Shown here in pieces: positions 9,377-37,861 of a stretch of DNA of 37,889 nucleotides. Position numbers and translations under genes: made by a program. The DNA lies in assembly GCA_002726235.1 (NCBI GenBank), contig PBSN01000007.1, positions 112,726 to 150,614 on the forward strand. Direction: 5' to 3'. Each line of letters opens with the position of its first letter. Positions within the stretch are counted from its first letter, which is position 1. The stretch comes from Nitrospiraceae bacterium (lineage in GTDB: Bacteria > Nitrospirota > Nitrospiria > Nitrospirales > UBA2166). Under the pieces are notes generated by a model, which searched no databases, was not told the DNA's origin, and worked only from the letters and a program-made list of their open reading frames with translations.

Positions 9377-9396
9377 CCTTTACTCTTTAGGGTCTC

Positions 9397-9723: not shown

Positions 9724-9797
9724 TGGGTCTTCCTCCTACAGGGTGACGTGATTTGGATAGCTTCGCATGTCAGTCTTGAAGCCAGTCGTCCAGTGTC

Positions 9798-11622: not shown

Positions 11623-13374
11623 ATGAATTATCAAGTTTCTGCAAGAAAATGGCGACCGATGTCGTTTCCTGATGTGATTGGCCAGGCTCATGTCGTGCAA
11701 ACCCTTGTCCATGCGGTCGAAGGGAAACGTGTCGCCCACGCCTATTTGTTTTCAGGAATGAGGGGTGTTGGAAAGACAACGGTGGCGAGAATCCTGGCTA
11801 AGGCGATGAACTGTCACCAAGGTCCGACACCAACACCCTGTGCTGAATGTCAAAGCTGCGTCGAGATTGCAAATGGACAGTCATTTGATGTCATGGAGAT
11901 TGATGGTGCTTCGAATTCTGGGGTCGATGACGTACGGAGTCTCCGAGAGAATATCAAAATTGGGCCTGCAAAAGGCGCACGCCGGGTGTATATCATTGAT
12001 GAAGTGCACATGTTGACGACAAATGCATTCAATGCGCTACTGAAGACGCTTGAAGAACCTCCGGCACACGTCATTTTTATTTTTGCGACAAGTGAACTGC
12101 ATAAAATTCCGCTAACGATCCTCTCGCGTTGTCAACATTTTACTTTCCGTCGAATTCCTGTTCAGACCATTACCGATCATCTTCAACATATTGTGGCACA
12201 GGAAGCCATCACGATCAGTCCTCGTGGTCTTGAGATCACAGCAAAAGCCGCTGATGGGAGTTTGCGAGATGCATTGAGTTTACTTGATCAGATCGTTGCA
12301 TTTGCCGGGCAGGAAGTCGCTGATCATCAAATTGATACTGTACTTGGGAATATTCCTCACGAACTTCGCCGGGAAATGTTTCATGCTGTTGTGACCCGCG
12401 ATCCGGCCAGAGCACTTGAGGTAGTGTGGGCAGTGGGAGATCAGGGAGGTGATCTTCATCGGTTTTTGGGAGACCTCGTTGAGGATGTTCGATCTCTCAT
12501 CGTGCTGAAGATTTCTCCAAAGTCGCTGGGAAGGATTGATGTATCAGAGGGGTTGAATCGCGAAGCAGAAGAGGCCGTGAGGACATTAACTATTGATGAC
12601 CTGCAGCGAGTCTTTGATATTTTGACTCAAGCTCAAGATCATCTCAAGCATACTGAGTTTCAAAATTATGTCTTGGAGATGGCGGTCATCAAAGTGTGCC
12701 AACTTGCGGCATCGGAGTCAGTATCTCACATGGATATGACCAATTGTGCAAAGGATCAAATAACCACGTCGCGTACGCAGACCTCATTGGAGACACCCCA
12801 GGCAATAACGCGAGGACAGGTCTCGCGGACGACAAAGCCTTCGGTAGCTACTCGTCCGAAGTCCCAGCGTGTTACTGCCCCCGGTTTCTCACGACCTATA
12901 GGTTCAAAGGCACCAGTCATTCCGAATGATAAAAAGACTACGCGTATGTCTACGCTGACGATTGATTGGACAGAGCTTGTAGAACGGGTTGGTGTGGAAA
13001 AACCAAACCTTGCGACGTATCTTGAAGCGGGTGTTCCAGTTAAGGTCGAAAACGGGATCATTCTGATTGCTTTTTCAGAGAATCGAGATATGTGTCGTGA
13101 GGTGATGGCACGTGACGACAATCAACAATATGTTCAGAATGTGTGTCGGTCGCTGTGTGGAAGTGAAGTCGAACTGAAGTTTGTTCGTCTTGCGAAATCT
13201 TCCGAGCCTGTGAAAACCATTGGAGAATTGGGTCAAGAAAAACATAAGAAACAAGCCCAGAATTTGCGCGATCGGACCCTCGACCACCCCTCGGTGCGGA
13301 TGGTGTTGGACGAGTTCGGAGGACAAATCCAGGACGTATGCGAGGATCGTGCGCAAGAAGGAGAGTCGCAATGA
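11623..13374 (+). CDS. dnaX: DNA polymerase III subunit gamma/tau
   Basis: The clamp-loader ATPase, 583 residues. It starts MNYQVSARKWRPMSF, the classic DnaX N-terminus, at the ATG 11623; an earlier in-frame GTG at 11587 lies inside the SRP RNA and is rejected. Walker A is GMRGVGKTT. A zinc-binding Cys group follows (NCHQGPTPTPCAECQSC). Walker B is VYIIDEVHML, and the arginine-finger SRC motif is in LTILSRCQHF. Residues after about 380 are low-complexity linker and then a C-terminal tau-like domain. A T AAA AAG string at 12930-12936 could allow frameshifting (see findings). The stop overlaps the ybaB start as ATGA. No ribosome site is obvious. Confidence 0.97.
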   Translation: MNYQVSARKWRPMSFPDVIGQAHVVQTLVHAVEGKRVAHAYLFSGMRGVGKTTVARILAKAMNCHQGPTPTPCAECQSCVEIANGQSFDVMEIDGASNSGVDDVRSLRENIKIGPAKGARRVYIIDEVHMLTTNAFNALLKTLEEPPAHVIFIFATSELHKIPLTILSRCQHFTFRRIPVQTITDHLQHIVAQEAITISPRGLEITAKAADGSLRDALSLLDQIVAFAGQEVADHQIDTVLGNIPHELRREMFHAVVTRDPARALEVVWAVGDQGGDLHRFLGDLVEDVRSLIVLKISPKSLGRIDVSEGLNREAEEAVRTLTIDDLQRVFDILTQAQDHLKHTEFQNYVLEMAVIKVCQLAASESVSHMDMTNCAKDQITTSRTQTSLETPQAITRGQVSRTTKPSVATRPKSQRVTAPGFSRPIGSKAPVIPNDKKTTRMSTLTIDWTELVERVGVEKPNLATYLEAGVPVKVENGIILIAFSENRDMCREVMARDDNQQYVQNVCRSLCGSEVELKFVRLAKSSEPVKTIGELGQEKHKKQAQNLRDRTLDHPSVRMVLDEFGGQIQDVCEDRAQEGESQ

Positions 13375-23279: not shown

Positions 23280-24320
23280 ATGGTGCGCTTAATGGATAAA
23301 CTTAAAATGCTATGTATAGTTAGGGATGCGTTAGTTTTTTCTCTAAACATCGCAAGTGCAATACTCAAGCTCTTAAAAAGAGTTTGGAACGAGTTGAATA
23401 AACTCCCTATTCGGATCGGAATATTTGCAGAATATCAGGCTAAAACACCCACTCTAACAGATCCTGGCCTATCCACTACCCTGAATGTTTCCGATGATAT
23501 CTATGAGCTCGCAGCGCACTATTACGATGATGGAGTTGTTGTTTTACACGACCAATCTTTTAAAAGGGAAATGCCAGATCTCCTAGCTGATCTAAAGAAA
23601 GAATTTTGTCCTATGGTGAAATACTTTGACCAGGCCCCAAATGTCTATAGCAGAAATTTTTTCTGGGATTCTCGAGGGCGGAGATGGTTTTTAAATAAGC
23701 CAAAGGGAGTTCTTCAACTCAGTGTCCCATACAGTGTTAATAATACTTACAATGCACGTCTTCATCCCATGTATTCTGAGCAACTCGATTTGTACAATAC
23801 GGATTCTCTTAAAAGAGATTTTCCTGTTTTCGAGAAGATTCTAGGTGACGAACTTTTACGGAAGTTTGTATCTTATGCTAATAAAACTAATCAGCTACCT
23901 TCCCATATAGTAATTGAAAGACGCATTCATGCTTCAATAGCTGATAGAGATGATTTCCTGCCCCATGTTGATATGAGCGAAGGTGTGTTCAAAAGCTTTA
24001 TCTATCTAAATGATGTTGGTCGCTTAAATGGCCCAATACATGTAAGCAAAGGATCTCATCATTGGGGTCTCTACCCGAGACTTCTAAAAGATATTTATTT
24101 AGGTCAAACAAAACATGCTTCTATACTTAAGACTGACATCGGAAGCAAATGGGGCATTAATCTTTTTGAGCCAATAGTGGGATCAGCAGGGGATCAGGTA
24201 TTGGTTTCTACCAATGCTCTTCATCATGCTTCTAGCCCTATGAAAAATCTAGAAAGATGGACAGTGCAGATCTATTACTACTCTAACTGCGCGTGGGCGA
24301 CAGATAAAAAGAAGCTCTAA
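23280..24320 (+). CDS. PhyH-like Fe(II)/2-oxoglutarate-dependent oxygenase
   Basis: 346 residues resembling the phytanoyl-CoA dioxygenase superfamily. The iron triad is visible: His229 and Asp231 in PHVDMSEG, and a distal His (315 or 316) in LHHASSPM. Arg326 in ERWTVQIYY fits the 2-oxoglutarate-binding Arg, and GPIHVSKGSHHWG is the usual double-stranded beta-helix segment. Such enzymes hydroxylate small molecules, lipids or sugar residues. A hydrophobic or amphipathic N-terminus (residues 10-36) may bind membrane. Start choice is uncertain: ATG 23280 or ATG 23292, neither with a good ribosome site. It converges on a GT-B-like gene, so a role in modifying the glycan is plausible but inferred. 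Confidence 0.75.
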   Translation: MVRLMDKLKMLCIVRDALVFSLNIASAILKLLKRVWNELNKLPIRIGIFAEYQAKTPTLTDPGLSTTLNVSDDIYELAAHYYDDGVVVLHDQSFKREMPDLLADLKKEFCPMVKYFDQAPNVYSRNFFWDSRGRRWFLNKPKGVLQLSVPYSVNNTYNARLHPMYSEQLDLYNTDSLKRDFPVFEKILGDELLRKFVSYANKTNQLPSHIVIERRIHASIADRDDFLPHVDMSEGVFKSFIYLNDVGRLNGPIHVSKGSHHWGLYPRLLKDIYLGQTKHASILKTDIGSKWGINLFEPIVGSAGDQVLVSTNALHHASSPMKNLERWTVQIYYYSNCAWATDKKKL

Positions 24321-24362
24321 GTAGATCTATTTAAAATTTCCTTGTGGGATAGAGTATCACTA

Positions 24363-24383
24363 GTGCGTTCTGACGTTACGCAC
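24363..24383. terminator. Hairpin between convergent genes, possible bidirectional terminator
   Basis: GTGCGT (24363-24368) and ACGCAC (24378-24383) form a six-pair G/C-rich stem with a nine-base loop. It lies between the PhyH-like gene and the convergent gene ending at 24388. No clean T run follows on either strand, so function is uncertain. Confidence 0.35.
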
Positions 24384-24387
24384 GCCG

Positions 24388-25815
24388 TTAATTCTTTCTT
24401 ATAAGACAAGCGTGGTCATAGGCCAACTTGGACAAAATCTGATCTACGGTTTTTCTTTTTGGAGGACAAAATTTCTGGTGGGTGAATATTTGAGGATCAT
24501 AACTCCCATCTTCCTCAATCCATCCAATCCCTTCTGACTTTCCATATACAAACTTCGGGTTGGCTAATTGTTGTAACTTTGTGATGCCAACAAACCCGAT
24601 GATAAATGCATAATCACAACTTGCGCGACCATCTCGGAGGGCGGATGATCCATACCCAGCCATTCCTAAATAAGCGCATATTATTTCTCGAATTGGCCTA
24701 GCGCAACCTACAATCATCGTGTCGATTCCCCTGTGTGTTAGGTGATCTCGCAACTGTTCAGGCCATTTTCCTGTTTCATCAGGGTGAACTCTCAAATGTA
24801 TAGTTTTCGCATTTGTTTCAGACAGGACAGTCTTAAAATCACGGTAAAATAAATACATTACATCATCAGAAAGCTTGTCAATGTTCAAGCGCCCACTCAA
24901 TGGTGATAGAACAGTGTCTTTTAGTGTTTTATGATGGTCGCACTGACAAGAGCCTCGTGATGGATATTGTGCGACATACACATCCGTATTCTTGAAAAGC
25001 AATGCGTGTGCGTCTGCTTCACGCTCATCAAACAAAATTAATGCGTTGGAACGGCCGGATCCCAATTGGGTCATGGAATCATATGGTCCGAGAGGAAACG
25101 TTTTGTGAACGATCAAGCACGGCAAAACAATCCGATTGACCATATAATCGATGTACGATCTGATCAGTTTTCGAGGATGCGTTATATTTATTTTTTTGAC
25201 TATAACCCAACTCCGTACTTGTCTGATAAAACGGTGTATTTGCTCTCTCACACGCAGAACGAAGCTTTTCTTCTCTGACAGAAGCATTTGCCTTTCAGCG
25301 TCAGCCAACATTTGTGGAGTGGTGTGCCATAGGTGTGCTCGAGAGGCGGATATCTTTGGCGCCTTGTGCCGCTGATATGCTGGAGCGTCTCCGCCAGAGA
25401 ACAACTGCTTTACAACCTCCTCATTGTACATAAATAAAAATGTGTTGTTGTGCCACATGCAAATTGAAATGCAGTGTTTTGGTAAAACACAGTCAAAAAT
25501 ATATCTTTCTGGTACCTGCATTTCCGAAGAGGTTAGCCATAGATCGAAATTATGCTTTCTCAGTATAGGTATTATCTTTGCCATGAAGAGGTGGAATTTA
25601 ATGCGGTGCTTGTCCTCTGGGAGCAGCACATATTGTTCTATTACGCCATCCTGCTTCCACCCATCAAGGAGTTTACTGAGGCCTGGAGGAGTAGAGTGGT
25701 TATACAACAGAATTATAATTTTAAACTGTTTCGTAAAGGCAGGAATTAATGGAGCAATAAATTCTATAAACGTACGAGATGCCCAATAAATCAAGAGTTT
25801 CTTTTTCTGTATCAT
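24388..25815 (-). CDS. GT-B-like putative glycosyltransferase, copy A
   Basis: 475 residues with no family that I can name surely. The N-terminal half starts with a Rossmann-like strand (KKLLIYWASRTFIEFIAPLIPAF). The C-terminal half has LRVHPDE (His344-Pro345) followed by a helix and GYGSSALRD (389-395). An HP motif followed by a Ser-Ser motif is how bacterial sialyltransferases and polysialyltransferases bind CMP, so transfer of a CMP-activated nonulosonic acid is my best guess; the NeuB-type gene nearby supports it. The EEDG string near residue 434 lies after HP rather than before it, so this is not a standard family member. It is a close paralogue of the gene at 30854-32224, in opposite orientation. 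Confidence 0.7.
   Translation of the reverse strand: MIQKKKLLIYWASRTFIEFIAPLIPAFTKQFKIIILLYNHSTPPGLSKLLDGWKQDGVIEQYVLLPEDKHRIKFHLFMAKIIPILRKHNFDLWLTSSEMQVPERYIFDCVLPKHCISICMWHNNTFLFMYNEEVVKQLFSGGDAPAYQRHKAPKISASRAHLWHTTPQMLADAERQMLLSEKKSFVLRVREQIHRFIRQVRSWVIVKKINITHPRKLIRSYIDYMVNRIVLPCLIVHKTFPLGPYDSMTQLGSGRSNALILFDEREADAHALLFKNTDVYVAQYPSRGSCQCDHHKTLKDTVLSPLSGRLNIDKLSDDVMYLFYRDFKTVLSETNAKTIHLRVHPDETGKWPEQLRDHLTHRGIDTMIVGCARPIREIICAYLGMAGYGSSALRDGRASCDYAFIIGFVGITKLQQLANPKFVYGKSEGIGWIEEDGSYDPQIFTHQKFCPPKRKTVDQILSKLAYDHACLIRKN
24496..24555 (-). repeat. Inverted repeat arm, 3' part of GT-B-like copy A
   Basis: By hand alignment this 60-base stretch on the minus strand matches 32054-32113 on the plus strand with three mismatches. 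It encodes KFVYGKSEGIGWIEEDGSYD. Together with the 25043-25152 arm it shows that the two paralogues are recent duplicates or are kept similar by gene conversion. Confidence 0.85.
25043..25152 (-). repeat. Inverted repeat arm, middle of GT-B-like copy A
   Basis: The reverse complement of this stretch aligns without gaps to 31460-31569, with 14 mismatches in 110 bases by hand count. It includes two perfect 17-base runs (TTGATCGTTCACAAAAC and CCATATGATTCCATGAC). The arms face each other across about 6.3 kb. Confidence 0.85.
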
Positions 25816-26202
25816 TTATTCTCGCACGTTGGATGTGTTGACAAAGCAATCGACTATGCTGAATAAGTACCGCTCTATCTGAAAGCCCAGCATTAACACG
25901 TGCGACACCATTTATCAAAGGCTAACGAAAAGATAGGGAGATGTTGAGGTATAGCTCAATGCGAATAAAAAAATCGCTGCTCTAATGCAGGATGTCGCTG
26001 TGATCTCCCGCCCAAATCATGCGTGGTCATGGCAGTCTAGCCTGTAGGGAATGATTGAATGCCTTCAATTTTACCGGAAAATAGTTTTACCCAATACGAG
26101 GATGCTACTTTGATGTAAAATTTGTTAGGACTGCTATTCGCTCGTCGGTATTCGTACAATCCACACTTAGGCGTTTCACAGTTATCCTCAGGACCAATTC
26201 TC
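25816..26202. other. Gene-free stretch between amidotransferase and GT-B-like copy A
   Basis: About 390 bases. A short leftward frame (25918 to 25721) overlaps the start of copy A but resembles nothing I know. No terminator, promoter or RNA was recognised, so co-transcription of copy A with the genes at 26.2-29.9 kb is uncertain. Confidence 0.4.
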
Positions 26203-28128
26203 TTAGTACCACCCTGTCAATGTTAGAAATGCTAGAGCAGAAAGGTCTGTTCGTTCCGCTGGGATTTCTTCACCCGCCAGGTAGTGGTCGACAATGCTGT
26301 TAATATAATTCAAATCAAAACACTCTGAAGAAAGCAGCGCTTCGTAGTTTCGATGCTTGAATCTCTCTTTGATTAGAGGTGTATAGGCCGATGCATAAAT
26401 AAATTCCCCAGCAAAGTTGAAGGTTGGATCTGTATCGTAGATATAAGAATGTGGGCCAACCTGCAGGTGCATTGGATAGTCAATTTTATTCTCAAGTATC
26501 CATTTAAGAGGATATTTCGTTGGCCGTATCTCGAGACCGCGACCACCGGACTCTGGCATCTCCGAGAGAAATTCGTGGAGCCGGCTGTCGTGGAATGGTA
26601 AGTTCATCTCGAATCCCTGTCTCTCAGCCGTGTATCCCAGGGTTGTGACGGTTCCACCTTGCCAGTGGAATGAACTGTACAGATGAATGTACCATGAATA
26701 TAACGTGGCCGGTGTTGCAACTTTGGCTGGTTCGTTTAAATATTTTGCTTCCATCTCCGAGCTATAAGATTCACGACCGGCCTTTGTGAACATGTTACAG
26801 TTCTCCAGAGACCAACCAGGCATGCGAAGGTCTCTGGTAAATATGCTTGCAAATAATTGGCGTGCACAACTCACGTGGTCGGTAGCCAGCTTGTCGAATA
26901 TCCCTCCTTGGTGCTGTCGCTTGAGGAGGTCATAAATCACATCTTCTTCAGCATTCCCCTTCAGCATCAACTGAAGGAAATTTGGCCCAAAAAGATAGGA
27001 TGCCATTTTGTCGCTATACTCGCGAAATGCCAGCACAGGATGGCCGTGAATCGTGGTGTGTTGACTAAATCCAAGATTGTGGATTCCATCACTGATCTCA
27101 CCAGAAAAGACCGCCTCGCCATTAGTTGTGGAGGCTATATGTTCGGATAGTAATGCCCATAAGTACATTGACAATCCGGAGAACATATGCGATCGCTGAA
27201 ATTCCTCCCATCGATCAACGACCTCCGGTCCCTTGTGCGCGTGGTCTATTTCGATGATATCAAGCGCTACCCCAAAATAATCTGTTACAGCCTTAATCCT
27301 CGTTAATTCAAAGGGATTGCTGATACCTGAACGTTCAGCAAAATTAAAACGACCTATGACCGCTCGAACCTTGTCTGGACCGTGCAGGTGGACCAACCCA
27401 GCAAGAATGGATGTTGAATCCCACCCTGATGACACATATACAACATTACCGTTTGGAGATGATCTCTTTTCTAGAGCATCCAAGAAAAGATCAGAATATC
27501 GGTGAAGATGCTCATTGCCAAAATCCTCATCCACGTTGACGATATAGGGCGGGACTTCGTAGAAACGGATCGTTTTTTTCTCCCAAAGGGCTATTTCGCT
27601 GACACCAAGGCGACTTACGCCAACGTAAAGTGTCTGACGTTTGGGTGGCCGAAATCCATATACAAGGAGAGAATGAGCCACTGCAACCTGATCGTACTTG
27701 ACAGTCTCTTCTCTGAAGGGAAGCATGCTCAGGTCAGACGCAAAAATGATTCCATCTCTTATCCTCTGGTAATAGAGATCAACTTTCCCGTAGCGATCGC
27801 AACAAACCTCTACTGACCCATTGTCATAGATCCTGACAAGGATATATCTTCCTTCGAGGTCTCGTACGCATTGTTCTGCTCGTTCTGAACAGACAAGTGA
27901 TTGAAACCTTAGGTCTCGTGTAGTCAGACGAGAGATGCCACCTGTCTTATCTCGTTGCCCGGTGACACTTCCACAGAACACTGCTCGGACTTGACTCCCA
28001 GCCTTGATTGGTATGGCCGTCGAGTCCCCTTGGACTAAGAATCCAGGCGCTTCATGCAGAGTGTCCAAGCCATCCCGATTCTTATACGCAGCAACTAAAT
28101 TAGTTCCTCCAATGATTCTAATTTTCAT
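26203..28128 (-). CDS. Asparagine-synthase-like amidotransferase, no N-terminal Cys
   Basis: 641 residues. The C-terminal part is an asparagine-synthase-type ATP pyrophosphatase domain with the PP-loop VSSGWDSTS at 232-240 and a later EISDG. The N-terminal part keeps pieces of the class II glutaminase fold (DLEGRYILVRIYDNG, CCDRYGKVDLYY, FASDLSMLPF). Residue 2 is Lys, not the catalytic Cys that must follow Met1, so it should not release ammonia from glutamine on its own. Related proteins in capsule and O-antigen loci amidate sugar carboxylates, and others form amides in peptides or antibiotics. GGAGC stands about six bases before the ATG. It lies 29 bases after the NeuB-SAF-SpsF gene, suggesting that it amidates that product; this is inference. 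Confidence 0.82.
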   Translation of the reverse strand: MKIRIIGGTNLVAAYKNRDGLDTLHEAPGFLVQGDSTAIPIKAGSQVRAVFCGSVTGQRDKTGGISRLTTRDLRFQSLVCSERAEQCVRDLEGRYILVRIYDNGSVEVCCDRYGKVDLYYQRIRDGIIFASDLSMLPFREETVKYDQVAVAHSLLVYGFRPPKRQTLYVGVSRLGVSEIALWEKKTIRFYEVPPYIVNVDEDFGNEHLHRYSDLFLDALEKRSSPNGNVVYVSSGWDSTSILAGLVHLHGPDKVRAVIGRFNFAERSGISNPFELTRIKAVTDYFGVALDIIEIDHAHKGPEVVDRWEEFQRSHMFSGLSMYLWALLSEHIASTTNGEAVFSGEISDGIHNLGFSQHTTIHGHPVLAFREYSDKMASYLFGPNFLQLMLKGNAEEDVIYDLLKRQHQGGIFDKLATDHVSCARQLFASIFTRDLRMPGWSLENCNMFTKAGRESYSSEMEAKYLNEPAKVATPATLYSWYIHLYSSFHWQGGTVTTLGYTAERQGFEMNLPFHDSRLHEFLSEMPESGGRGLEIRPTKYPLKWILENKIDYPMHLQVGPHSYIYDTDPTFNFAGEFIYASAYTPLIKERFKHRNYEALLSSECFDLNYINSIVDHYLAGEEIPAERTDLSALAFLTLTGWY

Positions 28129-28157
28129 GATAGCTCCATTATCAAATGACCAGTGGA

Positions 28158-29930
28158 TTAAATGGTTAATTGAGTATCTACGTCGAAATTCAAATATTTT
28201 TGCTTTTTATGCATGTTGATTTGTGCAACCTCGGGATTTTTCTTCAGCCATGCCAGGGCATCAGCAAGTGTAAAATAAGGATTTATGTCAGCAAAATGTG
28301 CATAGACTCTTGAGAAAAAGTCAAAATCCTCCTGATAATCCAACGTGATACGAAGGCACGGATCAAAGTCATAATCTGACGTTACGTGATGGATACTGAA
28401 ATAACGCTCATTCTCTAAATAGTATTCAAGGTATTCTGTATTAGATGGAATAACAGCAGTATCAAGGATTGTTTTAATTGCATTGATACTCACTACTTCT
28501 TTCCCTGTCCCAAATGGCATATTCGTCATAAGGGTGACATCACAGCAATGTTTGAGATGACTTTTCACCGCCTTGTCGATCATTACTTCATCGCATAAAA
28601 TTGCATCACCTGTAATGCGAACGAAGTGGTCAAGTCGATGTGCTGTAGCAGCTTCATAATATCGAGACGCAACATTGTCGAGGGATCCCCGAAATACCGG
28701 AATCCCTTCTCTTTGGGCGATCTGGGCTAGAAGATTATCGGACGGATCCGTCGATGTCGCTAAGACGATGCAATCCACAGATTGACAACGCTTCACCCGA
28801 TCAATCACCAACGCAATGCTTTCGCGCCCACAAATTTTCATCATAGCTTTATTCGGCAATCTACTTGACGAACAACGGACCACAATAATTGCCCCGACCT
28901 TACTGTTGAGGGTTGAGTATCGGCATAGTGCGCCTGCACTCATATTCCCGGTGAGCTGTTGTCCTACAACGCCTGCGCTCGAAACAGGGATCGCATTCAC
29001 GGGATCCTTCTTATATTCGATATCATTTTGGTGTATGACGTGACCCTTCGGTAAGTTTCGCCGCATGAAAGGACTTTTTTTGAACATTCTCCGGTATTGT
29101 CGTTCGTGTTCGTTGAGTATACCAACAGGCCGCAACAAAGGTGCTAATGTGCGAATCGATTGAACGAATTTACAAAAGCCAACCTTGCTTAGAGCAGATT
29201 GATAGTCCGTCCACTTATCCTCGCGGTTGATGGTGATATGTTTTTCAATGACGCACGCTCCTTTGGCTAGCGCCATTAGCGGCACAGTATATGCCTCTTC
29301 ACAACCACCATCGATATGATCAGAAAAGCCAATTTTTACCCCTAATGAGGCATATTTGACACTGAGATCGCTGACCTCGTCAAGTGAATGTGCTTCGATT
29401 GGTGTCGGGAACGTTTGCACTCCTGTCATTAAAATAGTTTGCCCGAGAAGGTTCTTGCATTTGAGGAAATTGAGAAGATTATAGATTTCGCTACGATGTG
29501 CACCACCAATGCCAATAATGACAGGCTTTCCTAACACGGCCACCTCAGCGATGAAGTAACTGTTCAATAGGTCTTCAGAGTGAATCTTGTATCCATCAAC
29601 TCCCAATTCTGTTGCCAACCTCAGGCTCTTGTATCCAAAAACGTCGGAAATAATGCTAAGTCCAAGCTCTCGGGCATGGTGAATTGCCTGACGCCACTGG
29701 TGCTCAGTCAGCTCAAGTTTCGCAAAAATATTCCAGGCATCCTCGCCTGGAATTGCACGTTCCTCAAGCGTAAAGACCTGAAACTTCACAATCTGGGCGC
29801 CACTTTCCGCAACAACATCGATTAGCTGTAGCAACTTACAGATGTCACCCCCGTGGCCGCAGGCAATTTCACCGATAACATATCCCTTGTGAGGAACTAG
29901 ATCATCAAATCGAATCATCGGATCTAGCAT
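28158..29930 (-). CDS. NeuB-SAF-SpsF fusion: sugar-acid synthase with cytidylyltransferase
   Basis: 590 residues in three domains. Residues 15-270 are a NeuB-type synthase that condenses PEP with a sugar: IGEIACGHGGD, AQIVKFQVF, YKIHSEDLLN, TFPTP, GFSDH (His205) and EKHITI (His231), the last two being the metal-binding histidines. Residues 285-340 look like the SAF (antifreeze-like) domain. Residues 345-590 are an SpsF-type cytidylyltransferase (VRCSSSRLPNKAMM, VLATSTDPSDN, VFRGSLDNVASRYYEA, VRITGDA). One chain would therefore make and CMP-activate a nonulosonic or related acid. Two possible ATGs (29930, 29918) lack clear ribosome sites. The missing NeuC-type and aminotransferase steps are not in the window. 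Confidence 0.88.
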   Translation of the reverse strand: MLDPMIRFDDLVPHKGYVIGEIACGHGGDICKLLQLIDVVAESGAQIVKFQVFTLEERAIPGEDAWNIFAKLELTEHQWRQAIHHARELGLSIISDVFGYKSLRLATELGVDGYKIHSEDLLNSYFIAEVAVLGKPVIIGIGGAHRSEIYNLLNFLKCKNLLGQTILMTGVQTFPTPIEAHSLDEVSDLSVKYASLGVKIGFSDHIDGGCEEAYTVPLMALAKGACVIEKHITINREDKWTDYQSALSKVGFCKFVQSIRTLAPLLRPVGILNEHERQYRRMFKKSPFMRRNLPKGHVIHQNDIEYKKDPVNAIPVSSAGVVGQQLTGNMSAGALCRYSTLNSKVGAIIVVRCSSSRLPNKAMMKICGRESIALVIDRVKRCQSVDCIVLATSTDPSDNLLAQIAQREGIPVFRGSLDNVASRYYEAATAHRLDHFVRITGDAILCDEVMIDKAVKSHLKHCCDVTLMTNMPFGTGKEVVSINAIKTILDTAVIPSNTEYLEYYLENERYFSIHHVTSDYDFDPCLRITLDYQEDFDFFSRVYAHFADINPYFTLADALAWLKKNPEVAQINMHKKQKYLNFDVDTQLTI

Positions 29931-30853
29931 GAGTGTTTAGGTCTGTGATGGTACGCATTGATCATTGCGTGACTTCTGATCTTGGTCGAAGCAGGAGTGA
30001 TTTACTCAAGATCTCCACAGTGCGTACCTGTTCTGCGGACAAATTTCTGGCAAAATTTTCTTTGCGGTTTTGACACACGGTGGGAGTACAGGTCAATGCC
30101 GTGTCCATTAGGTAGAGTTGGCGTAAAGTTCACTCTCACGGACAATGGTTTGATTCACACTCTTCATTGTGCCGAGTGGTCCGTTGTTCGTCAAGGCGAG
30201 CTATGTGGTCTTCTCAGAAATAATTCCTGCGAATAGCTTGGATTATCTAAGGTTTTACAATACATTACAGTACGCTTGGAATATGTTGTTTGAGGGGAAA
30301 TAAACGATTGCCGAGCAGGATGACTACGATAGCATATGGGATTTATTGCCATTGTGCTGAGACACCATTGGTTTTGCGAGACACATGTCGTGAGATGAGG
30401 TCACTCGCATGAATACTCTTGCAATACGCAGTCGTGCTTTCCACCGTGTACTCGTTGCCCGCCGCTTGCGTGACTTGGGAACATTCTGATCCTTTTGATG
30501 GTTGTTTTTGCGAGGTGTGGCCTGGACGGGTTTCTGGGAAACGACGACTTTGTCGTAGTGGATGTGGTCCAGGATGGAAGGTCGGGGGACGGCGCTTTCT
30601 GGCGAGGTGAAGCTAGTGTTTCGGATTTTTAGTGGAGGGGGAGTGGATGTTAACTCACTAACACCCTACAACGAAGAGTGAGAAAGATGACAATGCAACG
30701 GAGTCTAGCGAGTGTCCTTATTGGGAATGATAGCTTGCGAAACATGGTTCTCGGTGAGACGAGGAAGACTGTGTTGGCAATTGATCGAGTGCTGTCGTTA
30801 CATATTATTTTCTTAGTCTCGGGTTTTTCATCGGTACCTTCGGGTGGCATTTT
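29931..30853. other. 923-bp gene-free stretch between divergent genes
   Basis: This region separates the leftward NeuB-type gene from the rightward GT-B-like copy B and must hold their promoters. Short frames exist (29982-30236; 30419-30610), and a further frame across about 30480-30627 has an acidic stretch (GNDDFVVVDVVQDGRSGDG), but none resembles a known family or has a convincing ribosome site. The 30419 region is richer in G+C than the flanking glycan genes. An ACGAC TTT GTCGT hairpin lies near 30542-30556. It may be the debris of lost genes. Confidence 0.45.
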
Positions 30854-32224
30854 ATGAAGAAAATGCGGCTGCTGTTGGCCTTCGGAAACCCCTACTTATT
30901 CAGAGAAACAATTGCTCCGTTAATTCCAACGCTAGCTCAGGGATTTGAAATCTATATTCTCTTGGTAGATTTTCACACGCCGAAATCAACTATTGATCAG
31001 TTGAAATCATGGGAATCAGAAGGACGGATTATGGGATATGAGTTGGTTCCGAATTTTACCAATTCCGTGAAGCTGTTTTTTTTCCTAAAAAGGATGTTGC
31101 CTCGATTGCGTTCCCGTCATTTCGATGTGTTGCTAACCTCGGACGAAGTGCATACTTGGACTCGATGCCTATCGGAATGCGTGCTTCCCGATCAATGTGT
31201 TCGGCTGTGTTTTCAGTCGGCCCTTTCCTATTTGCTTAGGAATGCGGCGATAGAACAGTCGTTTTCTGGCGTGGACGTTTCAGAGTGTTTGCCAGAAGGC
31301 GTGAAAGAAAAACATAAAATGTCTCTGGTAGGGAGGGGAAGCCTTGTTTCGCGTGTGAGCGATCAAGTGCATCGTTTTATCAGAAAAGCATGGAGGTGGG
31401 TTACAGTTCGAGGGAAAAAGGATTCAAGGCCTTCTTTGCGTCGACTGGCTAGCCTTTACACCGATTATATTGTCAATCGGATTGTCGTTCCGTGGTTGAT
31501 CGTTCACAAAACATTTCCTCTCGGGCCATATGATTCCATGACTCACATTGGATCCGGTCGTTCCGACGCGTATATCTTTTGCGATGAAGTTGAAGCGAAA
31601 GTGTATGCTGCCATTGTCAAGACTCCACATATTCATGTGGCACAACATCCGGCCTATGGACAGTGCCGTTGCCAAGGCTTACAGAATTCCCGTTCCCGCA
31701 TTTTGGCACCGCTGTCGGGAGTCAGTGGTGCTCAGGAGATTTCAGAACGTCAGCTGTTTCTTTTTTATCGTGATCTTCGATGTGTATTGGTGGAGACTTG
31801 TGCACAGGCGGTACATTTAAGAATACATCCACGTGAAAAAGGTTCATGGCACTATCAGCTCAAAGGTTATCTTAGGGATAGGGGGATAGATGTGAGTCTC
31901 GTGGATGCTGAACAACCGCTTAGAGAAATTGTCTGTGACTACGTGGGAGTGGTTGGTGCTCTCTCGGGCGCGTTGCGAGATGCTCGTGCTTCGTGTAACT
32001 ATGCCTTTATTGTTGGATTTGTTGCTGTCTCCAAGGCGTATTACTGCAATCCAAAGTTTGTATATGGAAAGTCAGAAGGGGTTGGATGGATTGAAGAAGA
32101 CGGGAGTTATGATGCAGAAATTTTTTGTCGGTATGAATATATCCCACCGTCAAGAAAGAGTGTCAATGACATATTAAGGGATTCAGTGAGAGAGAAATTT
32201 GGCAAGGCATTTACGCCTTTCTGA
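30854..32224 (+). CDS. GT-B-like putative glycosyltransferase, copy B
   Basis: 456 residues, a close paralogue of the protein at 24388-25815. It keeps the N-terminal Rossmann-like strand (MRLLLAFGNPYLFRETIAPL), the VNRIVVPWLIVHKTFPLGPY block (207 onward), LRIHPRE (His325-Pro326) and GALSGALRDARAS. The Ser-Ser of copy A is Ser-Gly here, and about 20 residues are missing in the middle. If the family is CMP-sugar-dependent, as I suspect, the copies may differ in acceptor or linkage. GGGTGG lies six bases before the ATG. It faces away from copy A and is followed by a decayed region, so it seems to be transcribed alone. Confidence 0.7.
   Translation: MKKMRLLLAFGNPYLFRETIAPLIPTLAQGFEIYILLVDFHTPKSTIDQLKSWESEGRIMGYELVPNFTNSVKLFFFLKRMLPRLRSRHFDVLLTSDEVHTWTRCLSECVLPDQCVRLCFQSALSYLLRNAAIEQSFSGVDVSECLPEGVKEKHKMSLVGRGSLVSRVSDQVHRFIRKAWRWVTVRGKKDSRPSLRRLASLYTDYIVNRIVVPWLIVHKTFPLGPYDSMTHIGSGRSDAYIFCDEVEAKVYAAIVKTPHIHVAQHPAYGQCRCQGLQNSRSRILAPLSGVSGAQEISERQLFLFYRDLRCVLVETCAQAVHLRIHPREKGSWHYQLKGYLRDRGIDVSLVDAEQPLREIVCDYVGVVGALSGALRDARASCNYAFIVGFVAVSKAYYCNPKFVYGKSEGVGWIEEDGSYDAEIFCRYEYIPPSRKSVNDILRDSVREKFGKAFTPF
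31460..31569 (+). repeat. Inverted repeat arm, middle of GT-B-like copy B
   Basis: This is the partner of 25043-25152 on the other strand: 96 of 110 positions identical by hand alignment. Recombination between the arms would invert about 6.3 kb carrying the NeuB-type and amidotransferase genes and would swap the front halves of the two paralogues. Confidence 0.85.
32054..32113 (+). repeat. Inverted repeat arm, 3' part of GT-B-like copy B
   Basis: This is the partner of 24496-24555: 57 of 60 bases identical by hand alignment. The identity is higher than the proteins' overall similarity would require, which suggests recent gene conversion in this segment. Confidence 0.85.
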
Positions 32225-32493
32225 GTGTTATCGAGGAATGGTCCGCACGAAGTTTCATGGCTCTAAGAACTCGTTTTAGCGGGGCGTAAAATATGTGTGC
32301 TTTCAATGAATATGGGACGATTTAAGTTTGGACAGGAGCTGGAGGATCACCTGAAGCGCCTGATTTTTCCGCATGTGTTGTAGTGGTTTTGCTATGGGAG
32401 TACGGGAAAGAGTATGCCAAGGCTTTTTGCGCGCTTGAGGTAGAGCGTGTTCGGGTATGTTCTTGTCCGAAGGGTTGTTCTTCGGAGGACCCT
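32225..32493. other. Gene-free stretch after GT-B-like copy B
   Basis: About 270 bases. I see no terminator and no coding match. A frame opens at 32383 and runs into the short-chain-dehydrogenase fragment, but its first part (VLLWEYGKEYAKAFCALEVE) is not recognisable. Confidence 0.35.
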
Positions 32494-32622
32494 ATGCCTG
32501 AAAAGCCAGTTGTCTATTCTGTTAGCAAAGTGGGGCTTATTGGTTTGACCAGAGTCCGTTGCAATGTTCTTTATTCCGATGGTCTTGATACAGGTTTGCC
32601 TAAAGAGTGGGCAAGGAAATAA
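32494..32622 (+). pseudogene. Short-chain dehydrogenase fragment
   Basis: The frame reads MPEKPVVYSVSKVGLIGLTR and then VRCNVLYSDGLDTGLPKEWARK before a stop. The first part matches the catalytic Tyr-x-x-x-Lys helix of classical SDR enzymes (YSVSK). The second resembles their V-R-C-N-x-L-x-x-G-x-x-T segment. About ten residues that normally join these blocks are missing, and the N-terminal cofactor fold and C-terminus are absent. GGAGG at 32484-32488 stands before the ATG, so a short peptide could still be made. SDR genes are common in nonulosonic-acid clusters, so this is probably a relic of an earlier pathway member. Confidence 0.5.
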
Positions 32623-32787
32623 TTGACCTAATGTTCATGAGGCGCGTGGAGACTTCTGATGAATGCCAAGGTGTTTTGGTTTTATTTTTAGTGATACATC
32701 TAAGTATATGAATGAAGCATCATTGCATCTAGGGAGAGACAGCGCGGTTTATTGGTAATAAAACACATAAGTTGTGGAGAGAATTTC
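32623..32787. other. Leader region of the Gfo/Idh-AroE-DAHPS operon
   Basis: 165 bases between the SDR fragment and the operon's first gene. It is A/T-rich near 32690-32710 and probably holds the operon promoter; no clear -35/-10 pair is visible. Confidence 0.35.
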
Positions 32788-33837
32788 ATGAGAATCGGAT
32801 TTGTGGGCTGCGGAGCAATTTTTTCACATTATGCCAATGTGATTAAAGTACACATTCCCCAAATATCAATCACTGCTGTTTGCGATCTTGATAAGAGCAA
32901 AGGGGACAGTATTAACAATGCTAGCGGGGCTAAATTCTACACGAATATACACAACATGATTGCAGGGCAGAATCTTGATGCATGTTTTATTCTTACGCCA
33001 AGTGGTCTTCATTATGAACACAGCAAGATTTGTTTGAATGCCGGCATAAATACATTTGTCGAGAAACCTATTGCCCTAACTATTGAACATGCACTTGAGC
33101 TGAACAAATTGGCAAAAGAGAAAAACGTTGCATTGGGCGCCGTTTATCAAAACAGGTTTAACAAATCAATTCAATTAGCAAAGCAATTAATTGATGACGC
33201 TGTTTTTGGGAAAAGAGTACTTACTAGCGTAAGGCTTTTTTGGGCAAGAAATAATGACTATTACAAAGGCTGGAGAGGTACTTGGGCACTGGATGGAGGG
33301 GTGATGGCACAGCAGGCAATTCATCATCTGGATATGTTGCAATGGCTGAATTCACCTATCGAAAAGGTATATTGTATGGGAAAAACACTGATTAATAAAT
33401 TGGAAGCTGAGGATACTGCTATAGGCACTGTTCTTTTTCAGGACGGTTCGTTAGGCTCCTTTCAAGTGACCACAGCGGCCAGGCCAAAAGATTTAGAAGC
33501 ATCAATTACAATACTAGGGGAAAACGGATATATTGAAATAGGGGGTCTCGCATTAAATAAAATCAAAGATATCAATGTTCCCGATATGAAAATGGGAGGG
33601 AAAGATCTGATTGATGAACACAGCGAATCAGTAGAGAAAGGCTACGGCAATGGGCATATTGCATACCTAAAAAACGTTTATGAGAGTTTTGTATCTGGGA
33701 AAATTGTTGCACCAGTTTCAGGTGAGGATGCTGTTGATTCACTGAAGCTTGTGCAAGCATTGTATATGAGTAGTGAGAATGACCTGCCTGTACAATTTTC
33801 TAATAACATAAAATCAAGAAGACTAGGTGTCCGATGA
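32788..33837 (+). CDS. Gfo/Idh/MocA-family sugar dehydrogenase
   Basis: 349 residues. The Rossmann fold starts at once (MRIGFVGCGAIF). The family lysine is in VEKPIALT (EKP at 92-94), and WRGTWALDGGVMAQQAIHHLDMLQWL is the substrate-side signature. That last block resembles WlbA-type enzymes, which oxidise the 3-position of nucleotide-linked sugars with NAD; the exact substrate here is unknown. I chose ATG 32788 because GGAGAG lies six bases upstream and MRIGFVG is the normal start; a frame open from 32752 adds 12 unlikely residues. Its stop overlaps the next start as ATGA. The gene opens an A/T-rich operon. Confidence 0.9.
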   Translation: MRIGFVGCGAIFSHYANVIKVHIPQISITAVCDLDKSKGDSINNASGAKFYTNIHNMIAGQNLDACFILTPSGLHYEHSKICLNAGINTFVEKPIALTIEHALELNKLAKEKNVALGAVYQNRFNKSIQLAKQLIDDAVFGKRVLTSVRLFWARNNDYYKGWRGTWALDGGVMAQQAIHHLDMLQWLNSPIEKVYCMGKTLINKLEAEDTAIGTVLFQDGSLGSFQVTTAARPKDLEASITILGENGYIEIGGLALNKIKDINVPDMKMGGKDLIDEHSESVEKGYGNGHIAYLKNVYESFVSGKIVAPVSGEDAVDSLKLVQALYMSSENDLPVQFSNNIKSRRLGVR

Positions 33838-34871
33838 AACCCTTAAGTAGCCTTGTCAATAATACACTTGATGTTCAACCCACAGATTCATATTGCGGTA
33901 TATTTGGAGAAACGCCTTCGAGAGGAGCCCGTTCCCCCGTTCTATGGAATGCTTGTTTTGATGCCCTAAATATATCGTCCTATTTTTACCCATTTGATGT
34001 TCGTGCCGCTGGGTTAGAAAAACTAGTAGTGTATTTGAAGGATGATAAGAGGTTTTTGGGTGGTGCTGTTGCTGTGCCACACAAGGAAGCAATTATCCCC
34101 TTTTTGGATCATGTAGAAGAGGAGGCAAAGCTTATCGGTGCAGTGAATCTTATCTATCGCAAAGATGGGCTACTTTATGGTGCAAATACAGACGGTATCG
34201 GTGCGGTTGCTTCGGTAGCAGAATGTTTTGGCAAAGACATTGATGTATTTGCCAGAGATCAAAAAGTTACCCTGATGGGGACTGGTGGAGCTGCCAAGGC
34301 CTGTGCGGTATATTTTGCAAAATGTGTTGGTAAAAAAGGCCATATAACTATTATCGGCAGAGATGAAAACAAAGCAAAGTTATTGAGCGACAAATGCAGT
34401 GTTTTCAGCAATGCACGCTTTGGAACGTTTGATTTCCTTGAAGAAGACTTATCTGATTCCGATTTTCTGGTAAATTGCACTGTTATTGGATATGAAACCC
34501 ATGTTCAGGTTGGTGAAACCTATTTTTATAACGAGCCTTTTACACCGCTGTGGTCGATTCCGGAAAGTGGTTTTGACAGTGATACTTTGCAATCTCGAAA
34601 AGAATGGTTGACAAAGAATATTGCTGCAATACGGTCAAATTATTCAGGGTCATTTTCTATGTTGAGCAGGTTAAAGCCAACATCAGTAGTCATGGATGTA
34701 GTTTATCAGCCTGAGAAGACGCTTTTGTTAAATGTGGCAGGCATGCTAGGGCTTAATACTATTTCTGGCAAAAAAATGAATCTTCTTCAAGCGGCATATG
34801 GGTTGAAAAAAGCTTTTGCTGATCGTGGCATTTCTTTAAATGAGATAACCAATATAATGAAAAAGGTTTGA
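33834..34871 (+). CDS. AroE-like (shikimate/quinate dehydrogenase family) protein
   Basis: 345 residues, about 70 longer than typical AroE. Family features are [20 protein letters not shown] (substrate loop), VAVPHKEA with the catalytic Lys84, [14 protein letters not shown] with catalytic Asp120, the nucleotide loop MGTGGAAKA (148-156), and MNLLQAA near the end. In the substrate loop the first of the two carboxylate-binding Ser residues (S-x-S-P in AroE) is Ala, and the usual HN or HQ after it is WN. There is an insertion of about 60 residues in the second half. These changes point to a substrate other than shikimate. It overlaps the previous gene and is one base from the next, so it is part of an operon. 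Confidence 0.85.
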
Positions 34872-34872
34872 A

Positions 34873-35724
34873 ATGAAAGATGTATCAGAAAGCGATTTAA
34901 CAAATAACATACCATTGGTGGCGCTAAAGGAAGGTGAATCAACTAAGCCAGTTACAGTTGCGGGTGTTGAGTTTGGCGGGAATGATTTTGCCATTATTGC
35001 CGGCCCTTGTACGGTGGAAAGTGAAGAGCAAATAGTAGAGATTGCTGGTGCGGTGAAACAACGTGGTGCAAAGATGTTGAGAGGCGGAGCTTTTAAACCG
35101 CTCTCTTTCCCTTACCGCAGCGATTCATTTTTTGAACTTGGCGAGGTTGGTCTTGAGTATCTGAATGTCGCTAGGAAAACACACAACATTCCAGTAGTCA
35201 CAGAACTAATGGATATTAAATATCTGGACAAACTCTGTGAAAATGCTGATATGATCCAGATTGGTTCAAGAAATATGCAGAATTTCAGTTTGCTTGCGGA
35301 AGTTGGCGGGTCTGGTTTTCCAGTACTGTTGAAACGTCATTTTGGGTGTAGCTTGCGTGATTGGTTAGGCGCCGCAGAATATTTGGTGCATTACGGCTGC
35401 AAGGGAGTAGTCTTGTGTGAAAGAGGAATTACAGCGCCGCATACGCATGTTGTAACATCACGCTTTATTGTGGACTTACAGGTTGTACCTGCAGTTAAGG
35501 AACTTTCTCATTTACCGATCATTGTGGATCCCAGTCATTCCACTTTTCGAAGGAATTTTGTGCCACATGTTGCGCTAGGTGCATGCGGTGTGGGTGCGGA
35601 TGGTATCATCATTGATGTACATCCAACACCTGAAAAAGCTGCTGTCGATCCTTTAAATGCATTAACGTATGATGCTTTTGAGACTCTTGTCGGAAAACTC
35701 AATAACGTTAAAAAAGTTATTTAA
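34873..35724 (+). CDS. DAHP-synthase-like (type Ib/KDO8PS family) aldolase
   Basis: 283 residues, an alpha/beta-barrel that condenses PEP with a sugar aldehyde. The metal and PEP residues are mostly kept: AGPCTVES (Cys46), [15 protein letters not shown] (154-155), LCERG (182-185), IVDPSH (His222), and IIDVHP with Asp248 where Glu is usual. In DAHP synthase the erythrose-4-phosphate motif is KPRTSPYSFQG; here it is [11 protein letters not shown]. The KRG and CERGIRT loops are also changed (KRHFG, CERGITA). There is no N-terminal or C-terminal ACT or chorismate-mutase domain, so it should not be feedback regulated. AAAAGG stands six bases before the ATG. I infer a different aldehyde substrate and a product destined for the glycan. 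Confidence 0.88.
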
Positions 35725-35731
35725 TTAAGCT

Positions 35732-37072
35732 ATGGGAAAGAAGGTATCCATACTTATCCGTACAAAGAATGAGGGCCGGTGGATTAAACAATGTTTATCA
35801 AGTATACGCGGCCAGAGTTATAGGAATTTTGAAGTCATACTCATTGATAACATGAGTACTGATGCAACGGTAAAAAAAGCATCTTCCTATGATGTAAAAC
35901 ATGTAAACATTGAAAATTATAGGCCTGGCTATGCGATCAACCAGGGGATAAAGAATAGTACTGGGGACATCTTTGTTATTCTATCGGGGCATTGCGTACC
36001 AACCAATGAATTTTGGTTAGAAAACCTGATAAGTAATCTTGCAGATGAAAATGTAGCTGGCGTATATGGCAGACAGGAGCCTTTGTCTTTTAGCGCCGAT
36101 GCAGATAAAAGAGATCTGGCCATTGTTTTTGGATTAGATAAAAAAGTTCAGGAAAAGGATTCTTTTTTTCACAACGCCAATAGCGCATTAACAAGAGCAG
36201 TGTGGGAAGAATTCCCGTTCGATAATGAAGTCAATCATATTGAGGATCGACTTTGGGGTAAGGATGTTATTCGCGCAGGTTATAGGATAATTTATGAACC
36301 TGAAGCAAGCGTGTACCATTACCACGGCATACATCAGAACAATCATCCTGAAAGGCTGAAAAATGTTGTAAGCATATTGGAAGAACATGATGTTGTACAA
36401 AAACATGATCTTGAAAACGGTTGTGATTTTGCAACGATAGTCCCCATCAATGAGCCGCTGGATGAAATCAATGGATGTAGCTCTTTGCATTACATCGTGG
36501 ACACCATTCAGTCTTCTCAATACCTAAGCATGGCGAAGGCGGTTATAGCTACCAATATTCCGACAGTTATTCAGGAGGCTGAAAAACTGGGGTTTAATCA
36601 TATTTATCACCGCCCTGATCATCTTTCTGGCCCATTTGTCACATTGAACGCCGTAATTAAACATACTTTAATGGAGCATGACTTTCATGATGCTTTTCCC
36701 GATGCTGTTGTCTATTTGAGTCCCAAATTCCCTTACCGTCCTCATAAGGTCATAGATGGAATGATTTTAGATTTTATCGAGGGGGGGTATGATGTTCTTT
36801 TTCCAACATACAATGAAAGACGAACAGTATGGTTTAAAGATGACCAGGGCATCGTGCAATATGAAACAACCATGCCTACAGAACTGAAAAAGGGCATTGA
36901 AGTTGCTCTCACAAGTCTCTGCACCATTGCCCGTTCAGAGTATTATCTCGATAAAAAAGATAAAACGCAGATTGGCCTTTATGAAATTAATGATCCAATA
37001 TATTTGTATGCGACGGCGCTGGACTTAAAAAGCGATACTGGTAAGCACATAATGCAATATTTATTGAAATAG
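35732..37072 (+). CDS. GT2 glycosyltransferase fused to degenerate cytidylyltransferase-like domain
   Basis: 446 residues. The first 225 are a family-2 glycosyltransferase: VSILIRTKNEGRWIKQCL, LIDNMSTDAT (39-46), then ILSGHCVP (83-90) where many relatives have DxD, and IEDRLWG (170-176) as the acidic catalytic region. From about 232 a second alpha/beta domain resembles NeuA-type nucleotidyltransferases in layout (ATIVPIN, IVDTIQSS, VYLSPKFPYRPHKVIDGM) but lacks the basic G-S-K-x-x-x-K-N loop. It is therefore probably inactive or has changed ligand. The gene lies seven bases after the aldolase gene and three bases before an intact NeuA-like gene, so the two may act together. Confidence 0.82.
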   Translation: MGKKVSILIRTKNEGRWIKQCLSSIRGQSYRNFEVILIDNMSTDATVKKASSYDVKHVNIENYRPGYAINQGIKNSTGDIFVILSGHCVPTNEFWLENLISNLADENVAGVYGRQEPLSFSADADKRDLAIVFGLDKKVQEKDSFFHNANSALTRAVWEEFPFDNEVNHIEDRLWGKDVIRAGYRIIYEPEASVYHYHGIHQNNHPERLKNVVSILEEHDVVQKHDLENGCDFATIVPINEPLDEINGCSSLHYIVDTIQSSQYLSMAKAVIATNIPTVIQEAEKLGFNHIYHRPDHLSGPFVTLNAVIKHTLMEHDFHDAFPDAVVYLSPKFPYRPHKVIDGMILDFIEGGYDVLFPTYNERRTVWFKDDQGIVQYETTMPTELKKGIEVALTSLCTIARSEYYLDKKDKTQIGLYEINDPIYLYATALDLKSDTGKHIMQYLLK

Positions 37073-37075
37073 AAA

Positions 37076-37861
37076 ATGCACAAGTCGGCAGAGAACGTTA
37101 TATTAATTCCCGCCAGAAGTGGTTCTACCAGAGTCAAGGACAAAAATATTAGGCCACTAAATGGCAAGCCCCTTATTTCCTATGCTATTGCTTCAGCCAT
37201 TGCCGCGAAGTGCGGACCTGTATTTGTTTCTACGGACAGCGATAAATACGGCAACATTGCAAGGGCTTATGGCGCCGAAGTTCCCTATTTGCGACCAAAG
37301 TATCTCTCAACAGCCAAATCATCATCATGTTGGGTCATTGTTCATTTCCTGAAATGGTTTAAAAAAACTGAAGGTTTTATCCCAGAGTTTATTACCTTTT
37401 TTCCACCTACAAATCCGTTGCTGGATGCAAAAACACTCCGGAGGATGCTAAATCGCCTAAAAAAGGCAACGCAATTTAACTCGATCGTGACCTATACTGA
37501 ACCCAAAACTCATCCCTTTTTTATTATTTCCATTGGAGAAAGTGGGCAGATAAAGAACGATGCCGTAATGCTTAATGGCAACACGATTAATGATGTTGAG
37601 CGGACTCAAGAGTTCCCAAAGGTGTTTCAGGGTTCGCCGGCATGCAGAATTACACGGTCTCGATTTTTTATAGACCTGTTGAAGGAAAGTCATCGAGTTA
37701 ATTGTATTTCATACAATAAAACATACGATTACAAAAACTGTATTGGGCATTTGATATCTCAAGAAGAAGCAAGTGACATTGATACACCAGATGATTTTCA
37801 ACGGGTAGCTAATTATTTATCAGCTAAATCTTGGTCGAAAAAATCAGAGTCGCGGATGTGA
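37076..37861 (+). CDS. NeuA-like CMP-sugar (acylneuraminate) cytidylyltransferase
   Basis: 261 residues, complete. The CTP-binding loop ILIPARSGSTRVKDKNI (residues 9-25) is intact, with Arg and Lys residues in place. It is followed by GKPLISYAI, VFVSTDSDKYGNIARAYGAEV (49-69) and FPPTNPLLDAKTLRRML. The C-terminal part has SQEEASDIDTPDDF, as in other CMP-sugar synthetases. It couples CTP to a 2-keto acid sugar such as a nonulosonic acid. Which sugar is used cannot be read, but its place after the aldolase-like gene makes that product a candidate. The ATG is three bases after the previous stop. Only 28 bases follow to the window edge. Confidence 0.9.
   Translation: MHKSAENVILIPARSGSTRVKDKNIRPLNGKPLISYAIASAIAAKCGPVFVSTDSDKYGNIARAYGAEVPYLRPKYLSTAKSSSCWVIVHFLKWFKKTEGFIPEFITFFPPTNPLLDAKTLRRMLNRLKKATQFNSIVTYTEPKTHPFFIISIGESGQIKNDAVMLNGNTINDVERTQEFPKVFQGSPACRITRSRFFIDLLKESHRVNCISYNKTYDYKNCIGHLISQEEASDIDTPDDFQRVANYLSAKSWSKKSESRM

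Follow-up and report, generated by a model that had tools for sequence, protein, structure and literature searches.

The window analysed, i.e. the whole stretch of 37,889 nucleotides from contig PBSN01000007.1 of the Nitrospiraceae bacterium assembly GCA_002726235.1, includes a run of five genes that lies within a low-GC island. The features are as follows.

32788..33837, + strand: WlbA-type Gfo/Idh/MocA dehydrogenase, 349 aa (Pfam PF01408/PF02894)
33834..34871, + strand: AroE (shikimate dehydrogenase) paralogue with an extra loop of ~50 residues, 345 aa (PF08501, 61 bits)
34873..35724, + strand: paralogue of type I-beta DAHP synthase (DAHPS), 283 aa, confined to the catalytic barrel; predicted to be a PEP-dependent ulosonate aldolase (PF00793, 181 bits)
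35732..37072, + strand: fusion of a GT2 domain (aa 1-225) with a NeuA-like domain that lacks the P-loop (aa ~230-446) (PF00535, 86 bits)
37076..37861, + strand: NeuA/PseF-like CMP-sugar-acid cytidylyltransferase with an intact P-loop, 261 aa (PF02348, 78 bits)
23280..37861, no strand assigned: low-GC glycan island around the cassette, which is outer context and not the cassette itself (GC by gene)

The original prediction of a tight operon at 32788-37861 was borne out, with all five open reading frames found in place on the + strand. The Gfo/Idh and AroE genes overlap by 4 bases, and gaps of 1, 7 and 3 bases separate AroE from the aldolase, the aldolase from the fusion, and the fusion from NeuA, respectively. 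Each of the five gene assignments is backed by Pfam and NCBIfam models; the second domain of the fusion is too degenerate for Pfam.

The source genome, a 1.87 Mb draft, has housekeeping AroG, KdsA and AroE on another contig (660, 405 and 277 bits, respectively). Hence, the cassette copies are extra paralogues, and a reading of the cassette genes as housekeeping duplicates was rejected, as the AroG, KdsA and AroE of the genome lie elsewhere. The earlier statement that no other shikimate gene is present thus holds for the window and fails for the genome, and the accompanying view that aromatic synthesis is unlikely stands, given that the cassette copies are paralogues and that housekeeping AroG and AroE are encoded separately.

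Genes of the island at 23280-37861 have 39-46% GC, as compared with 48-50% in the flanking housekeeping genes, and the island also holds a NeuB-NeuA fusion, Asn-synthase-like and PhyH-like genes. The cassette aldolase was not found in three searched genomes of the same genus (73-96% complete). The deviating GC content and the lack of the aldolase in the same-genus genomes suggest that the cassette was gained horizontally. The NeuB of the island (28158-29930, - strand) is fused to a cytidylyltransferase-like domain and scores far under the NeuB/PseI equivalog cut-offs. Two proteins without a Pfam match, encoded at 24388-25815 (- strand) and 30854-32224 (+ strand), share 43% identity and lie on either side of the NeuB-NeuA and Asn-synthase-like genes; they may be glycosyltransferases, as judged from an RxHP motif.

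When 84,980 species genomes were searched with a two-sequence aldolase profile, 80 loci were obtained. Profile HMMs derived from these loci were then used to score co-occurrence on the same strand and within 6 kb of the aldolase gene. The five families, whose co-occurrence had been proposed as a check on the operon, were found together at 58 of the 80 aldolase loci. Among the 43 loci with at least 6 kb of flank on both sides, 32 had all five families, and AroE-like, GT2, NeuA and Gfo/Idh genes were present in 40, 41, 41 and 32, respectively. The AroE reading frame lay no more than 300 bases from that of the aldolase at 62 of the 80 loci. As the same five families recur jointly at so many homologous loci, the five-gene run is far beyond chance; the cassette is widespread and not an operon of one genome, and the finding is larger than first stated.

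Loci with all five families belong to Pseudomonadota, Cyanobacteriota, Acidobacteriota, Chloroflexota and Omnitrophota, the set being found in bacteria of at least five phyla, and the hosts include members of the ocean plankton such as SAR11 and Prochlorococcus. The aldolase is present in 13 of the 297 SAR11-family genomes sampled. The commonest gene order, seen in SAR11, Prochlorococcus, Roseibium, Marinomonas and SAR86, is NeuA, GT2-NeuA-like, Gfo/Idh, aldolase, AroE, and the window cassette has the same genes in permuted order. In a second layout (aldolase, AroE, NeuB-like, GT2, NeuA, NeuA-like), which occurs in relatives from the same order as the window, Chloroflexi and Omnitrophota, GT2 and the P-loop-less NeuA are encoded by separate adjacent genes, and Maf/methyltransferase genes are added in relatives of the same phylum. 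Gfo/Idh is absent nearby or is not WlbA-type in a Thalassobaculum-like layout, in the same-order relatives and at a Chloroflexi locus; hence, these loci do not require the redox pair. The aldolase gene is solitary in Azospirillum and Nisaea, where the GT2, NeuA-like and NeuA genes are still grouped together at another site of the respective genome (with AroE in Nisaea).

The cassette lies on its own, between housekeeping genes, in Roseibium (L028; tRNA-Ser, L21 and MttB) and in Prochlorococcus (L036; hemF, ribonuclease D-like and tRNA-Cys), and no recognised glycan genes were found among the scanned flanking genes of the two loci. This implies that the cassette is self-sufficient from central metabolites; one would then expect a common metabolite as the substrate and a constitutively present surface molecule as the acceptor. 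Genes for Maf-type flagellin glycosyltransferases are neighbours at L019 and L110. Ties to glycan or flagellin-glycosylation loci are frequent, and the genes are thus linked to glycan loci as was anticipated, rather than scattered and unlinked.

Neither the AroE-like nor the DAHPS-like protein had relatives on viral contigs. Plasmids and phages gave only ordinary DAHPS-like matches of <60% identity, none of them close to the Roseibium protein, and the four plasmid loci that were read carry genes annotated aroF with KPRT. A search of the open-access literature, with subscription journals outside its scope, found no relevant publication on this gene combination or on related sugar acids in these bacteria.

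Several variants of the cassette were observed. At the SAR11 loci L125 (3247-6146) and L126 (11364-14271), a divergent cassette has genes for an asparagine-synthase-like protein and an apparent FMN-dependent 2-hydroxyacid dehydrogenase (names assigned by eye) inserted between those of AroE and NeuA, a hint that the product is amidated or oxidised further. L109, which is from the same order as the window, has two AroE paralogues in a single cassette (5473-6588 and 8957-10063). At L069, a gene of ~168 aa (11784-12287) lies between AroE and GT2; its product resembles part of a NeuB-like protein (41.6 bits), perhaps only the C-terminal SAF part.

The five genes probably constitute a portable cassette for the synthesis of a CMP-activated 3-deoxy-ulosonic-type sugar acid, composed largely of paralogues from the shikimate pathway. 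The PEP-dependent, CMP-activated ulosonic acid originally proposed is thus supported, as a pathway predicted from gene set and motifs. The gene set and its conservation, the active-site substitutions, the Gfo/Idh-AroE and GT2-NeuA-like fusions and the split from the housekeeping paralogues are direct observations. From them we infer the individual reactions and their order, the substrate, the product and the acceptor. The DAHPS paralogue would condense PEP with an aldehyde to give a 3-deoxy-2-ulosonic acid, the aldehyde being probably not erythrose 4-phosphate (E4P) and perhaps unphosphorylated. The WlbA-type Gfo/Idh dehydrogenase and the AroE paralogue would act as a coupled redox pair on a single hydroxyl or ketone, and the NeuA-like enzyme would make the CMP donor. 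Finally, GT2, joined with a catalytically dead NeuA-like domain, would pass the residue to a surface acceptor.

A profile of 16 cassette Gfo/Idh members matched 3q2i and 3q2k, which we take to be WlbA entries, over the full length with 296 and 295 bits, the next best match being at 116 bits; the WlbA-like assignment made at the outset is therefore supported. Neither the five genes nor the scanned neighbours of the stand-alone cassettes include partners of the Wlb/Wbp pathway. The AroE paralogue falls under all shikimate dehydrogenase equivalog cut-offs (143 against 200 for TIGR00507 and 146 against 252 for NF001319). The catalytic K84 and D120 and the ring-contact N105 and Q319 are conserved in it. 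The first Ser of the carboxylate-binding HSxSP motif is replaced by Ala (A32), giving GARSP in most members and, more rarely, AKSP; HSLSP is present in nine of nine housekeeping AroE. The 27 cassette AroE proteins are split from these nine with an SH-aLRT of 99. The model of the window AroE paralogue (mean pLDDT 96) has the AroE fold, and 5-ketofructose reductase 7cok is among its nearest solved relatives by both sequence and fold.

In Vicinamibacterales (Acidobacteriota; L023), a single open frame of 734 residues comprises Gfo/Idh fused to AroE. This fusion argues strongly that the two enzymes are coupled and says nothing of the order of the reactions. The ring position at which WlbA and AroE act is in both cases meta to the carbon that bears the carboxylate, with WlbA oxidising UDP-GlcNAcA at C3 and AroE reducing 3-dehydroshikimate. 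This position corresponds to C4 of an ulosonic pyranose; hence, C4 epimerisation is the most economical guess, and by analogy the pair might epimerise C4 by oxidation and re-reduction, an assignment that we hold as possible and rather doubtful. Alternatively, the pair may precede the aldolase and convert a free sugar or a polyol to an unusual aldose, to be extended with PEP and then activated by NeuA. The kinship with 7cok, an AroE-fold sugar enzyme, and the use of inositol and sugars by Gfo/Idh relatives are consistent with this order, which the fusion leaves free. However, the substrates of WlbA and AroE are both carboxylated and only the aldolase product would carry a carboxylate, and the four AroE-type residues that engage the ring hydroxyls are retained. 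An early action of the redox pair is accordingly thought unlikely.

The aldolase that would supply the carboxylated substrate of the redox pair scores 283 bits against TIGR01361, above the DAHPS cut-off of 267.75, and 88 bits against TIGR01362 (KDO8P synthase), below the cut-off of 314. It has no match to PF03102 (NeuB) or PF08666 (SAF), and is 42-50% identical to ordinary type I-beta enzymes. The PEP-binding residues R60, K65, R120, K141, R171 and H206 of Aro1A (PMC6362186) are matched by R70, K75, R133, K154, R184 and H222, all of which are conserved. In type I-beta DAHPS, E4P is bound by the KPR(S/T) motif, with R67 of KPRT as a ligand (PMC6362186). In the cassette aldolase, the motif is changed to KPL(S/T)FPYR, such that Leu replaces the E4P-ligand Arg and is followed by FPYR and a three-residue insertion that remodels the loop; the E4P site still has its Thr/Ser and Asp. 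KPL was found in 83 of 83 aligned members, a conservation that is partly ascertained among the 80 loci as the DNA search patterns included FKPL[ST]FPY; the ordinary references L103-L106 have KPRT. The proteins of SAR11 loci L125 and L126, which were found by HMM and in which AYKPL could not be matched by that pattern, also have KPL, together with AGPN. An HTH motif at residues 190-192 is new and conserved.

Metal-site residues of the window aldolase are C46, H222, D248 and D259. In 76 of the 83 members the metal Cys is replaced by Asn (N46), always together with E248, and the seven members with Cys, including that of the window, have D248. A Cys/Asn switch separates metal and non-metal KDO8P synthases (PMC3052366), and all reported DAHPSs are metalloenzymes (PMC6362186). 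In the tree, the KPL members form a single clade (SH-aLRT 99) apart from the four KPRT references, and two proteins from the same phylum as the window, with KPCTFPYR, are placed between them. The gene cluster of the latter includes NeuB-like, GT2, NeuA, NeuA-like and Maf genes and no AroE within the stretch examined. At L110, the gene for this intermediate aldolase (8979-9812, - strand) adjoins a NeuB-like gene whose product has, by eye, more usual NeuB motifs than that of L019. As judged by sequence, the aldolase lacks the KPR(S/T) motif that helps define DAHP synthase as a functional class, and the AroE paralogue the HSxSP motif of shikimate dehydrogenase.

The retained PEP residues, the change of the E4P-ligand Arg to Leu and the Asn in place of the metal Cys were counted in favour of an ulosonate aldolase that probably does not use E4P. 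Given its score above the TIGR01361 cut-off and the Thr/Ser and Asp kept from the E4P site, the enzyme may still act on E4P, in which case the cassette would yield and transfer plain CMP-3-deoxy-heptulosonic acid, the phosphate being removed by a host phosphatase. This is improbable in view of the lost phosphate-binding Arg and the remodelled loop, the absence of a phosphatase among the five cassette genes, and the loss of the metal Cys in most members of what would be a family of metalloenzymes.

The C-terminal domain of the fusion matches solved CMP-NeuAc synthetases by profile and its predicted fold agrees (TMt 0.79-0.81); the pTM of the fusion model is low (0.53), and the relative placement of the two domains was left unread. 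An ARxGS P-loop is present in none of 63 aligned rows of this domain (14 rows without the fused domain) and in 57 of 66 cassette NeuA members. The window NeuA has both the P-loop and a CTP_transf_3 domain; it scores 123 bits against the PseF model (cut-off 206), and the nearest solved NeuA are 9ftb and 6ifd. GT2 and NeuA-like are separate adjacent genes at L019, L109 and L110. The fusion described earlier is thus present, but its NeuA-like half is a P-loop-less pseudo-enzyme, which had been overlooked. This half would serve as a non-catalytic part for binding of the CMP donor or for docking. To our knowledge, GT2 enzymes are not known to use CMP-sugars; hence, the cassette GT2 may transfer another sugar.

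The PseF-like character of NeuA, the NeuB-like genes beside the set at several loci and the NeuB-NeuA fusion nearby in the window would also fit an ordinary locus for a nonulosonic acid of the pseudaminic or legionaminic type with mis-called accessory genes. We regard this as very improbable: neither the five-gene core nor the stand-alone cassettes include NeuB, the aldolase is without NeuB and SAF domains, and the core lacks an aminotransferase, an acetyltransferase and a dehydratase. The analogy drawn at first with an aromatic or aminoshikimate (AHBA-like) route, in which the genes would feed a shikimate-type secondary metabolite and whose clusters also have Gfo/Idh, DAHPS-like and AroE-like gene types, is scarcely credible and was rejected because the defining enzymes are missing, with no dehydroquinate synthase, PLP-dependent AHBA synthase or kinase in the five genes or the scanned L028 and L036 flanks. 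NeuA and GT2 are frequent partners, housekeeping copies of AroG and AroE are encoded separately, and the cassette has a relative of type I-beta DAHPS as its aldolase and a Gfo/Idh of the WlbA type, all of which speaks against this route.

For the ulosonic acid cassette preferred here, it follows that annotation as amino-acid synthesis probably conceals a glycan pathway in SAR11, Prochlorococcus and numerous further bacteria, because database models, with TIGR01361 above cut-off, name the aldolases DAHP synthase. The chances are nearly even that the product represents an undescribed class of surface sugar acid, formed by a shikimate-derived aldolase and a redox pair, transferred by a GT2 whose CMP donor is held ready by a dead NeuA domain, and spread as a mobile cassette across abundant ocean bacteria. 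If the ulosonic acid reading is right, the aldolase would be a third PEP-aldolase lineage in ulosonic acid biosynthesis and provide an independent metal/non-metal switch for comparison with KDO8P synthase, the GT2 would be a candidate CMP-dependent member, and the product would be a residue on the cell surface that may be encountered by phages and grazers of the most common bacteria in the ocean. As the five genes are small and self-contained, the whole pathway is open to in vitro work.

Like the CMP-nonulosonic acid pathways (NeuB/NeuA, PseI/PseF and legionaminic acid), the cassette combines a PEP-dependent sugar acid with CMP activation by a NeuA/PseF-like enzyme and transfer in surface-glycan or Maf flagellin-glycosylation loci, but it differs from them in its aldolase, a paralogue of DAHPS with no NeuB or SAF domain, in the pairing of WlbA-type and AroE redox enzymes, and in the fusion of GT2 to a P-loop-less NeuA-like domain. 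It shares the 3-deoxy-ulosonate logic and the same Cys-to-Asn metal/non-metal switch with the Kdo pathway (KdsA/KdsB), whereas the cassette aldolase lacks the KANRS/T motif, there is no KdsC-like phosphatase, and the genome has a separate KdsA. The barrel, the PEP-binding residues and the TIGR01361 score above cut-off are those of a type I-beta DAHP synthase, in contrast to the KPL(S/T)FPYR, the extra loop, the HTH motif, the Asn that mostly replaces the metal Cys and the lack of an aromatic operon. The Gfo/Idh protein is akin over its full length to WlbA (UDP-GlcNAcA 3-dehydrogenase of the 2,3-diacetamido-mannuronic acid pathway) and far nearer to it than to other solved structures, yet the cassette has none of the UDP-GlcNAc 6-dehydrogenase, aminotransferase, acetyltransferase or epimerase partners of that pathway. 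The resemblance to the AHBA (rifamycin-type) aminoshikimate cluster is one of gene types and superficial, since the cassette lacks AHBA synthase, dehydroquinate synthase and kinase and is tied instead to CMP activation and glycosyl transfer.
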